Below, one piece after another: positions 37,591 to 41,258 of a DNA stretch of 41,518 bases. The position numbers and the translations under genes are program-made. This stretch comes from Candidatus Iainarchaeum sp. GTDB lineage: Archaea; Iainarchaeota; Iainarchaeia; Iainarchaeales; JAAZKV01. Numbering within the stretch: position 1 is the stretch's first letter; the number at the start of each line of letters is the position of its first letter. Under the pieces are notes generated by a model that saw only the letters and a list, made by a program, of their open reading frames with translations, had not been told where the DNA came from and did no database searches. Location: assembly GCA_012799645.1 (NCBI GenBank), contig JAAZKV010000018.1, positions 1 through 41,518 of the forward strand, written 5' to 3'.

Positions 37591-37696
37591 AATTTACACC
37601 TCAATCTAAATAACAACAATATTTTTAATTATTTTTTATTTGAAAAGTCTTTTAAATTAAAAGTCCTAAGTTTATTGATGAAGTTTAGTGTTTTTT

Positions 37697-38338
37697 ATGA
37701 GTGAAGTTATTTCTGATATAAAATCTTTTGAAAAAAAATACAAAAAATTAAACAAATCTTCTCCAAGGTTTAATGCGATCAAAAAGTATTTTTCTATTGG
37801 TGGAGTAATTAAAACACACCCTTCAGACAAAGAGTGGCCAAAACTTGTTTACCCAACTAGTGTTGTTCTTGAATCAAAATTAAAAGAGGTTAGAGAGAAG
37901 AGAAAAATTTTTAATGAAAAATTAAGTTCTTGGAAAAAGACACACAAGAGTGCTTCTAATTATCACTTGACTAACCAAGTTTTGAAACTAAAAGAACCAC
38001 TTTATTGGAAACACATAGCAAAAATGGCTACTGATTCTGATTATAGAAAGGATGCGGAAACAGTAAAATTGCCTGCGCATTTAGTATCAGATAAAAAGTG
38101 GCAACCAATGGTGAAAATGTTTGTTAATGATTTGGATTATAGAAAGCAATTATCCGAAACAGTTAGGACAAGTGTTGTTTATAAGAAAGAAAAAAAAGTT
38201 GCAAAGTACGCTGATGAGTTAAAAAATTTTAGGATGGAAACTTCAAACAAACAAATAACTGATTTGGAGAAAAAAATTAACGAATTGAACGAAACAGAAA
38301 ATGCACTAAAAGAATTACAAGTTTGGGCAAAAGAATAA
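37697..38338 (+). CDS. Helical cytoplasmic protein, function unknown
   Basis: Not recognised. 213 residues, mostly charged helices, with a C-terminal coiled coil (about 175-210, NKQITDLEKKINELNETENALKEL). Two similar segments, KMATDSDYRKDAETVKLPAHL and KMFVNDLDYRKQLSETVRTSV, suggest an internal duplication of about 45 residues. The start is ATG at 37697 after GTGTTTTTT. The palindrome CTTTTAAATTAAAAG (about 37647-37661) upstream may hold box A. Confidence 0.6.
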   Translation: MSEVISDIKSFEKKYKKLNKSSPRFNAIKKYFSIGGVIKTHPSDKEWPKLVYPTSVVLESKLKEVREKRKIFNEKLSSWKKTHKSASNYHLTNQVLKLKEPLYWKHIAKMATDSDYRKDAETVKLPAHLVSDKKWQPMVKMFVNDLDYRKQLSETVRTSVVYKKEKKVAKYADELKNFRMETSNKQITDLEKKINELNETENALKELQVWAKE

Positions 38339-38561
38339 AACTAATTTTAAAAAACAAAAAATAATCAAAAAAATTTAAACTATTTAAAAAACACCAAAAC
38401 TAATTTCAAAAAAATAAAAGAATACAAAAAAAATATATCAATAAAAAAAACAAATAACAAAAAACATTTTTTCAAAAAAAAATAATTCTAAAAAATAATT
38501 CCTCTTGACCACCGGCATTGCACTCTCACAGCGTTTATAAACAAAAAAATACGCATACTAA

Positions 38562-38621
38562 TTAGAACCAAAAAGAGTCCAACTATAATTTGTTTTTTGG
38601 ACTCTGTTTAGTTGGTTCTAA
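38562..38621 (+). promoter_or_regulatory. Long two-part stem-loop in an mRNA leader
   Basis: The outer arms TTAGAACCA (38562-38570) and TGGTTCTAA (38613-38621) and the inner arms AGAGTCCAA (38574-38582) and TTGGACTCT (38597-38605) pair perfectly. The loop is 14 nt. A TATA box (GTTTATAA, about 38533-38540) puts the transcription start at or near the first arm. The last arm abuts AAGGAGG. The structure therefore occupies the entire leader and ends at the ribosome site. Confidence 0.7.
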
Positions 38622-38634
38622 AGGAGGAATTTTT

Positions 38635-38712
38635 ATGGTGGCATCAAGATTGTGTAGATTTGTTAGTGTTGAAGGGAGGCCAACACCAAATTTCTTTTAC
38701 ATAAAATTGTAA
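38635..38712 (+). CDS. 25-residue leader ORF
   Basis: MVASRLCRFVSVEGRPTPNF plus five residues, behind a near-perfect AAAGGAGGAATTTTT site, one of the strongest in the window. It lies between two leader hairpins and upstream of the PC4-like gene. It could be a small functional peptide or a leader peptide that controls the next gene. Confidence 0.45.
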   Translation: MVASRLCRFVSVEGRPTPNFFYIKL

Positions 38713-38758
38713 ATTAAAAAAATGTAAAAGAGAATTAGAAATAAAATTTTTATTGTTT

Positions 38759-38807
38759 GTTAGTTGGGGAAGAGTAAATAATCACCCAATTTTCTTCTCC
38801 CACTAAC
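38759..38807 (+). promoter_or_regulatory. Second leader stem-loop, upstream of the PC4-like gene
   Basis: Arms 38759-38773 and 38793-38807 pair over 15 positions with one mismatch and one G-U. The TTGGGG segment of the left arm could instead pair with CCCAA at 38785-38789 or with CTCCCAA at 38807-38813. Alternative folds near the ribosome site AAAGGAGG (38818-38825) are therefore possible. Confidence 0.55.
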
Positions 38808-38832
38808 TCCCAATAATAAAGGAGGAATAAGT

Positions 38833-39051
38833 ATGAAACCAGTGAAGAGTATAAAAGTAGGTTCAATCGAGGTTGCTGTGTGGGAGAACACTTCAAAGGA
38901 AGGGAATAAATTTTTCACAACAACTATGAATAGAAACTACAAAGATAAAGAGGAGTGGAAAAAAACAGATTCTTTAAGAGTGGATGATTTGCCTAAAGCA
39001 ATTTTAGCACTTAAAGAAGCTTACCACTTTGCTGCAATCAAAAGTGAATAA
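38833..39051 (+). CDS. Small PC4-like protein, possible ssDNA-binding
   Basis: A 72-residue protein: the strands SIKVGSIEVAVWENTS and NKFFTTTMNRNYKD, the segment DSLRVDDLPKAILALKEAYHFA, and a short tail. The strand, strand, strand, helix order and the LRVDDLPK helix start resemble small archaeal proteins with a PC4/transcriptional-coactivator-like fold, which bind single-stranded DNA. The assignment rests on pattern alone. An AAAGGAGGAATAAGT site and a structured leader precede the ATG. Confidence 0.6.
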   Translation: MKPVKSIKVGSIEVAVWENTSKEGNKFFTTTMNRNYKDKEEWKKTDSLRVDDLPKAILALKEAYHFAAIKSE

Positions 39052-39119: not shown

Positions 39120-41258
39120 ATGAACCCTGAACACAATAATAAGGTTTTGGATAAAGTTCTTGAAGTTAATAAGTTCAAAGAATTCAATCCTATGCAAAAA
39201 AAGTGTTTGGATAAATTGAACAACAGTCTTGTTGTTTCTGCACCCACTGCTAGTGGTAAAACTATTGTTGCGGAATTATTTTTTCTTCAAAGTGTATTGA
39301 ATGAAAAAAAGAAAGTTGTTTACACTTGTCCTTTGCGTGCTCTTGCTAGTGAGCATTACAAGGATTTTAAAAAAAAATATCCAGAAATAAAATTTTCTCT
39401 CTCTACCGGAGATCTTGATTCTAGTAGTTCTTATTTAAAAAAATTTGATGTGATAATGACTACTTATGAAAAGCTTGCGAGTTTGTTAAGACACAAAGCA
39501 GAGTGGTTGGGGGATGTTGGTTGTGTTATTGTTGATGAAATTCATGAACTTGATTCTTCAAGGGGCCCAGTTCTCGAGATTGCTTTAACTCAACTTAGGA
39601 ATAGAAATAAGGCATTAAAAATTTTGGGTTTGAGTGCAACTATTCCTAATTCAAAAGAATTAGCAGAGTGGCTTAATGCAGAACTTGTAGAGAGTGATTT
39701 TCGCCCAACAAAATTAAGAGAGGGTGTAATGTTTGAAAACGAAATCACTTATCAGAATAAAAAAATCGAGAGTGTGGGTGATGTTGAAAAACTAATTGAG
39801 GATTTGATTAAAGAAAATAAACAAGCATTAGTTTTTTTGAATTCAAGAAAACGCGCAGAGGGTTTTGCTAAAAAAATTTCAAAAATTGTTTCAAAAAACT
39901 TGGAAGAAAAAAGTGTTCCAAAATTAGTTGAAGTATCAAATAAAACTCTTAATGTTCTTGAATCCCCAACAGAACAATGCTCCTCTCTTTCTGATTGTAT
40001 CAAACACGGGTGTGCTTTTCATCACGCAGGATTATTGAATGAACAAAGAGAAATAGTGGAGGATAATTTCAGGAGTGGAGAAATAAAAGTGCTTTGTTCA
40101 ACCACCACTCTTTCTGCGGGAATAAATTTACCCGCAGATTTAGTAATTATTCCTAGTGTTTATCGTTTTGAAAAATTTTCAATGGAACTAATTCCTGTTA
40201 GGGAATATAAACAGTGCGCTGGAAGAAGTGGTCGTCCAAAATTTTCTAGTGAAGGGAAAAGTGTAGTGCTTGCTTCCACTGATGAGCAAAAGGAATTAAT
40301 TTTTGAAAAATATGTGAATGGAGAGATAGAAAAAATTGAGTCAAAATTATCTTTGGTTCCAATTCTCCGCACCCATATTTTAGCACTAATTGCAACAAAT
40401 GATATTTATGATATTAAAAGTATAGAATTGTTTTTTGAAAAAACATTATACGCAAAACAATTTGGGGATTTTGGAGAACTGTTAGACATTGTTTTGGATA
40501 TTATTAGTGATTTAGAAAGGTTTGGTTTTGTTGAAAACAAAAATAACTTTTACACTTGCACTCCCATTGGTAAAAGAGTGAGTGATTTATTTTTAGACCC
40601 AAATAGTGCGTTTGATTTGATCACCGCGCTAAAAAGTAGAAAAACGTTTACAAACATTTCTTACCTTTATGCTTGGTGTAATTGTTTTGAATTTTCTCCA
40701 TTATTGAGTGTTCCAAAAAACCTTAAACCAATTATTTATGAAGAGTTTAGTGAAAGATTTATTGAATTGCCTTTTAGTGAAGAAAAATTACTTTTTGAAG
40801 AAGATTCTGTTGAAAAATATTTTTCGGCTTTAATGCTTGAATATTGGATTAAAGAAAAAAAAGAACAAGAATTGTTCAAAGAATATAATTTAGCTCCAGG
40901 AGTATTGTTTGGCAAAACCAGAATTATTGAGTGGTTAGCTTACAGCACTATTGAACTCTCAAAAATTTTAGGAATAGAAAAACACTTATTGCCGAGTAAT
41001 AAAGTAAGTAAGAGAGTAAAGTATGGAGTGAAAGAGGAACTTTTAGCTCTTGTTGAATTAAGAGGGGTTGGAAGAGTAAGAGCGAGAAAATTATTCAATT
41101 CAGGAATCAAAAAACCTAGTGAAATAAAATCAAATGTTGGCAAAGTTGAAGCACTTTTTGGAAAAAAAATAGCTGACACGATAATTAAACAATTAATTGT
41201 AAAAAATAATGCAAAAACAAAATTAAACGAAATAAAATCCACCCAAAAAAGCTTATAA
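39120..41258 (+). CDS. hel308: Hel308/Hjm Ski2-like DNA helicase
   Basis: A 712-residue 3'-5' helicase of stalled-fork repair. The Q-motif region FNPMQ is followed by Walker A APTASGKT (41-48), PLRALASEHY, the DEIH box in VIVDEIHELDSSRGP, SATIPN, and HHAGLL. The second RecA domain ends with EYKQCAGRSGRP. Winged-helix and ratchet domains follow, with a C-terminal helix-hairpin-helix domain (ELRGVGRVRARKLFNSGIK). Length and domain order are normal for the family. Confidence 0.95.
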   Translation: MNPEHNNKVLDKVLEVNKFKEFNPMQKKCLDKLNNSLVVSAPTASGKTIVAELFFLQSVLNEKKKVVYTCPLRALASEHYKDFKKKYPEIKFSLSTGDLDSSSSYLKKFDVIMTTYEKLASLLRHKAEWLGDVGCVIVDEIHELDSSRGPVLEIALTQLRNRNKALKILGLSATIPNSKELAEWLNAELVESDFRPTKLREGVMFENEITYQNKKIESVGDVEKLIEDLIKENKQALVFLNSRKRAEGFAKKISKIVSKNLEEKSVPKLVEVSNKTLNVLESPTEQCSSLSDCIKHGCAFHHAGLLNEQREIVEDNFRSGEIKVLCSTTTLSAGINLPADLVIIPSVYRFEKFSMELIPVREYKQCAGRSGRPKFSSEGKSVVLASTDEQKELIFEKYVNGEIEKIESKLSLVPILRTHILALIATNDIYDIKSIELFFEKTLYAKQFGDFGELLDIVLDIISDLERFGFVENKNNFYTCTPIGKRVSDLFLDPNSAFDLITALKSRKTFTNISYLYAWCNCFEFSPLLSVPKNLKPIIYEEFSERFIELPFSEEKLLFEEDSVEKYFSALMLEYWIKEKKEQELFKEYNLAPGVLFGKTRIIEWLAYSTIELSKILGIEKHLLPSNKVSKRVKYGVKEELLALVELRGVGRVRARKLFNSGIKKPSEIKSNVGKVEALFGKKIADTIIKQLIVKNNAKTKLNEIKSTQKSL

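Follow-up and report, generated by a model that had tools for sequence, protein, structure and literature searches.

In one archaeon of the little-known lineage Diapherotrites (Iainarchaeota), the region upstream of a PC4-like gene controls a unit for DNA repair. Taken together, its features are probably explained as the start of a transcription unit of repair genes, with a regulon-type promoter, a hairpin leader and genes for a microprotein, a PC4-like protein and a Hel308 helicase. The unit is most likely switched on together with a repair regulon at a CACCGG promoter element, and this shared control is well supported. It lies in a window of 41,518 nt (the whole stretch of DNA that was analysed; C2:1-41518) from the 779 kb source genome (G000) and is labelled locus L001. 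Unless stated otherwise, coordinates are window positions, and the parts of the unit are on the plus strand.

Gene organization

The PC4-like gene (38833-39051) encodes 72 residues with a predicted ββββα arrangement and is present in 37 of the 53 genomes of the order. The AlphaFold2 model of the protein (pLDDT of 93.6) displays this arrangement, which is the element order of PC4 and PUR domains. The product is likely to be a small protein of the single-strand-binding type. It is like the single-strand-binding domains of the PC4/PUR family in the predicted order of its elements and unlike them in lacking a significant match in sequence or fold: sequence searches of Pfam, NCBIfam and the PDB returned no similarity to known members, and a Foldseek comparison of the model with the PDB gave no significant hit, Borrelia Pur-alpha ranking third with an E value of 0.66. 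Relatives of the protein also occur in Planctomycetota and related bacteria (L049-L053).

The next gene in the unit (39120-41258) encodes a Hel308-type helicase with Pfam DEAD, Helicase_C and archaeal helicase domain 4 matches. Of 30 loci, 16 have a gene of this type within 1.7 kb after the PC4-like gene. On the other side, positions 37688-38338 encode a conserved 216-residue protein of no known family, whose gene is often found upstream of the PC4-like unit.

The promoter element and its regulon

The TATA box of the original prediction is present at 38534-38541 (TTTATAAA). Leaderless genes with a promoter of the same class have their ATG about 20-26 nt past the TATA box, which places the probable transcription start at about 38561-38566; the transcript would therefore begin with the leader hairpin described below. 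Alignment of the regions upstream of the PC4-like loci revealed an order-specific element, CACCGG(A/C)A-N4-AC, in which CACCGG(A/C)A is followed by CACTC or a similar sequence. It is located upstream of the TATA box at a distance of about 16-17 nt, aligns before almost every PC4-like locus in the order and in the window reads CACCGGCA-TTG-CACTC (38510-38525).

A search pattern derived from the PC4-like promoters was then run over the 53 genomes of the order and gave about 79 distinct sites, compared with two raw matches for the reversed control. It recovered repair genes that had been absent from the building of the pattern, namely those for NurA (six sites) and RadA (three) together with HerA, Hel308-like, Hef-like, XPD, MCM and spore-photoproduct-lyase-like (SPL-like) proteins. 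Genes of mobile elements also follow the element, including those for LAGLIDADG (ten), PIN (four) and Bro-N (three) proteins, PemK toxins, DNA methylases and IS605-type OrfB. No ribosomal or metabolic family is among the 25 commonest Pfam families downstream. In the source genome the strict form of the element is found at only three promoters, those of the PC4-like unit, radA and a gene for a 504-residue protein, and the reversed control has no match. The element is present in 37 of 48 radA upstream regions, with a spacing of 16-17 nt to the TATA box in 31 of the 37. Twelve genomes from other families of the class lack it.

A common promoter element thus precedes radA and other repair genes, the arrangement of an archaeal damage-response regulon. 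The order-wide set of repair and mobile-element genes suggests an SOS-like repair regulon; this is the best reading of the sequences, and from the gene content the regulon would presumably be induced by DNA damage.

Homing endonuclease, toxin and Bro-N genes carry the element at L085, L090, L220, L248, L250, L256, L225, L247 and other loci, as if mobile elements had adopted the damage signal of their host. The 504-residue protein (G000:C24:19286 onward, L264) has no Pfam match and contains a conserved cysteine cluster; by eye, its N-terminal part resembles family-B DNA polymerases, and eight further genomes of the order contain look-alikes with the promoter element.

The leader hairpin

The leader folds into a compound hairpin (hairpin 1; 38562-38621) with an asymmetric internal loop. 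The outer stem of 10 bp pairs 38562-38571 with 38612-38621 and the inner stem of 9 bp pairs 38574-38582 with 38597-38605. The fold has an energy of -24 kcal/mol (z of -4.0), and none of 200 shuffled sequences was equally stable. The Shine-Dalgarno site of the micro-ORF, AAAGGAGG (38620-38627), overlaps the hairpin, its first two A residues being the last two of hairpin 1 and paired in the outer stem. The leader is therefore what the original prediction described, a compound hairpin ending at a strong Shine-Dalgarno site.

Hairpin 1 is confined to one family, and in the other families of the order the leader is mostly short. The original prediction would have the hairpin retained in homologues; in nine of the ten family members the promoter and the micro-ORF are separated by a compound hairpin, and the remaining one (L010), which has none, speaks against it. 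The prediction also looked to compensatory changes in both stems, and the two stems differ in this respect. The window, L006 and L007 share one form, in which the outer stem (GAACCA/TGGTTC) is invariant and so uninformative for covariation; the inner stem is wholly different in sequence and still paired. The inner helix of the type-B form (L002-L005, L008 and L009) has 49 of 53 cells paired and six of nine pairs changed on both sides, which none of 2000 shuffles matched; this count comes from six sequences aligned by hand, because MAFFT misplaced one sequence (A8), and so leans towards structure. With this hand alignment, the inner helix displays the compensatory stem changes of a structured RNA leader.

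No Rfam family matches the PC4-unit leader at its gathering score, and a known riboswitch is not supported. At a relaxed threshold the best candidate for the leaders was SSRC34_1 (E of 0.019, 30 bits against a cut-off of 64 bits), which was judged to be a chance match. A K-turn was also considered for the leaders and discarded, as inspection by eye found no paired G-A on both strands.

The radA leader

The radA gene of the source genome is preceded by this promoter element and by a structured leader of its own (G000:C2, about 143260-143385, minus strand; L120:2459-2513), a member of an order-wide family. The radA leader is 80-100 nt long, lies upstream of radA and forms a compound hairpin followed by AGGAGG or GAGGT. 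A covariance model built from four sequences found further radA leaders. When 15 distinct sequences are compared, pairing holds in 93% of cells, 13 of 14 pairs are changed on both sides and the covariation score is 0.765, against 0.229 ± 0.032 for shuffles and no more than 0.148 when the partners are slid; the compensatory changes of a structured RNA leader are strong here. The apical and internal loops keep YCAAA-type sequences. Below an E value of 0.002 all matches but one are located at radA, one per genome; the exception (G048:C108:375-426, E of 0.002) is in a genome that is 60% complete and in which radA was not found. With strict filters, model R2 over the 53 genomes misses weak members such as the radA leader of the source genome, which matches at an E value of 6e-4 in an unfiltered search. 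Rfam contains no family matching this leader.

Membership of hairpin 1 or hairpin 2 in the same RNA family was rejected, as covariance models R1 and R2 match neither. The PC4-unit and radA leaders have their position and compound architecture in common and no sequence motif, so they need not represent one mechanism.

The microprotein

The predicted 25-codon ORF is located at 38635-38712 (MVASRLCRFVSVEGRPTPNFFYIKL) and, on the evidence of its sequence conservation, is a real and previously unannotated gene, part of a family of 22 homologues. Among the family members the pN/pS ratio is 0.54 for the reading frame of the gene compared with 1.1-1.3 in the other two frames, and the close pair L002/L004 has a pN of 0.05 and a pS of 0.45, as expected under purifying selection. 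The proteins contain 23-28 residues with the pattern M..xR[LI].RFVE... and are encoded before the PC4-like gene across the order. The micro-ORF precedes that gene in all ten genomes of the family (for example MVGSRLVRFVEAKGMREVDFSYIKL and MVESRIFRFVEANPRKVDFSYMKKF), and sequences from more distant families include MSVFRLCRFVEGKGRARSIRPFL and MVAFRLCRFVETKRTAKSLRGLLSIA. A profile search identified clear members (E < 0.001) in 21 of the 53 genomes, nearly all of them directly before the PC4-like gene.

In three genomes (G014, G026 and G030; loci L072, L073 and L074) the micro-ORF is followed by a gene for an OB-fold single-stranded DNA-binding protein (SSB) instead of the PC4-like gene. The SSB of G026 contains Pfam PF01336 and PF21473. 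The CACCGG element precedes the micro-ORF and SSB gene in G014 and G026, and the G030 contig ends too early for it to be seen. G026 additionally has a PC4-like gene with the same CACCGG element and no micro-ORF. Two other genomes have a tRNA gene interposed between micro-ORF and PC4-like gene. The linkage to SSB genes and the intervening tRNA gene argue against a leader peptide and favour a small protein that would act together with ssDNA-binding proteins. Three positions after the core phenylalanine the residue is small (A, G, S, T or C) in 20 of 22 sequences. FxxA is the motif of RadA-binding peptides; the apparent resemblance of the F-x-x-[A/G/S/T/C] core to it is only a lead.

The second hairpin

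Hairpin 2 (about 38750-38808), with an unpaired CACCC (38783-38787) in its apical loop, is located between the micro-ORF and the PC4-like gene, ahead of the second AAAGGAGG Shine-Dalgarno site (38818-38825). The hairpin claimed at this position does exist and is kept, with its unpaired apical CACCC, in all five genomes of the genus (the window and L002-L005); its stability is less distinctive, the energy of -21.9 kcal/mol corresponding to a z of only -1.5, with 16 of 200 shuffles as stable. The sister genus has no such hairpin. All the elements described in the original prediction are thus present, and the conservation of hairpin 1, micro-ORF and hairpin 2 sets them apart from chance features. 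With hairpin 2 in one genus and hairpin 1 in one family, the two do not form one coupled device across the order. The supposed rarity of GGAGG fails, since the window contains 34 copies compared with 23.1 ± 4.2 expected; AAAGGAGG itself occurs only three times. An H/ACA-type guide RNA, prompted by the ACAC tail after the stem in relatives, was considered for hairpin 2 and rejected by eye because the spacing did not fit. In L002 and L004, runs of T that could be terminators follow hairpin 2.

Proposed mode of control

Transcription would start from the TATA promoter with the order-specific upstream element CACCGGMA...CACTC, which is most likely bound by a dedicated regulator and would join the PC4-like unit to one regulon with radA, nurA, herA and the repair helicases. 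The mRNA would open with the stable compound hairpin that reaches into the Shine-Dalgarno site of the microprotein gene, and would continue through the PC4-like gene, which has a separate hairpin and Shine-Dalgarno site, into a presumably co-transcribed Hel308 helicase gene. From its conservation and position, hairpin 1 most likely modulates the stability of the mRNA or the access of ribosomes to the micro-ORF, a form of translational control in the latter case, and the different leader RNA of radA probably acts likewise. Of the post-transcriptional switch in the original prediction, the conserved structured leader with compensatory changes before the Shine-Dalgarno site, the real short ORF and the predicted ββββα protein are supported; the leader peptide or attenuator is not. 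The original prediction overlooked the promoter element common to this unit, radA and other repair genes.

Hairpin 1 might instead be a passive 5' cap that guards the 5' end of a long-lived or highly translated mRNA against decay and senses nothing. Its stem starts close to the probable +1 position, its sequence varies freely while pairing is retained, and radA has different hairpins in the same place; the strongly conserved unpaired A-rich positions of the radA leader, however, exceed the needs of a passive stem, and we hold this explanation to be possible but tentative. Autoregulation, in which the PC4-like protein (or RadA, on its own leader) binds the hairpin and blocks the Shine-Dalgarno site unless occupied by ssDNA, translation thereby responding to how much damaged DNA is present, is attractive but appears unlikely. 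Structured leaders do reach the Shine-Dalgarno site in both the PC4-like unit and radA, both products bind or likely bind single strands and compensatory change keeps hairpin 1, but the two leaders have no common sequence or loop motif and most PC4-like genes of the order lack such a leader. That a second, RNA-level layer operates, with free RadA or free ssDNA-binding protein, perhaps joined by the RFVE microprotein, repressing its own translation through the leader and titration by damaged ssDNA relieving the repression, is in our view distinctly unlikely.

Control of the PC4-like gene through translation or arrest of the micro-ORF as a leader peptide, acting via hairpin 2 by attenuation or in the manner of a uORF, would fit a short ORF that sits between two hairpins, each before a Shine-Dalgarno site. 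A leader-peptide attenuator has a run of regulatory codons in an otherwise free peptide, whereas this peptide is conserved as a protein family and contains no run of one codon type; the replacement of the PC4-like gene by an OB-fold SSB gene in three genomes, the tRNA gene interposed in two and the restriction of hairpin 2 to one genus also count against this proposal, which is very unlikely. At the DNA level, the fixed distance to the TATA box is what a general strong-promoter element of the order would display, but with only three strict sites in the source genome, and repair or mobile-element genes behind the element, it is very unlikely that CACCGGMA is such an element and not the site of a repair regulon. 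The preferred reading is thus common transcriptional control with repair genes, to which hairpin 1 would add an effect on the mRNA.

Comparison with known systems

In the literature consulted, mostly outside subscription journals, we found no account of the element, the regulon, the microprotein family or the radA leader RNA, and within the same literature a DNA-damage regulon is apparently undescribed for Diapherotrites or any DPANN archaea. The 16-bp element yields a direct list of candidates for experiment: radA, nurA, herA, the repair helicases, two kinds of ssDNA-binding gene and the mobile-element genes. Two further new families are open to experiments in vitro or in a model archaeon: the conserved microprotein, whose gene is associated with genes for ssDNA-binding proteins of two different folds, and the radA leader RNA, which covaries strongly and has no counterpart in Rfam.

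The leaders resemble the structured 5' leaders in Rfam (riboswitches and ribosomal-protein leaders) in having a conserved structure before the Shine-Dalgarno site and differ from them in that neither the PC4-unit leader nor the radA leader matches an Rfam entry. In the bacterial LexA/SOS regulon, a recombinase and repair genes are under one element that is also used by mobile elements. The present set appears analogous, with recombinase, repair and mobile-element genes under one element, a likeness of gene content.

Lineage-specific damage elements are already known from two other archaea. The UV-responsive promoter motif of Halobacterium, TTTCACTTTCA, is found at radA1, top6B and other genes (PMC2556686); like the element described here, it is a short sequence upstream of TATA that is common to radA and other genes. 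It differs in sequence and lineage, and its genes are UV-induced, whereas induction is presumed from gene content in the present order, where nurA, herA, repair helicases and mobile-element genes are also included. The DNA damage response element of Sulfolobus, ANTTTC, is likewise a promoter element of an archaeon that is believed to link genes of the damage response; it differs in sequence and is bound by Orc1-2 (PMC9738581), whereas the regulator in the Diapherotrites order is putative. The element here, CACCGGMA...CACTC, is distinct from both TTTCACTTTCA and ANTTTC.
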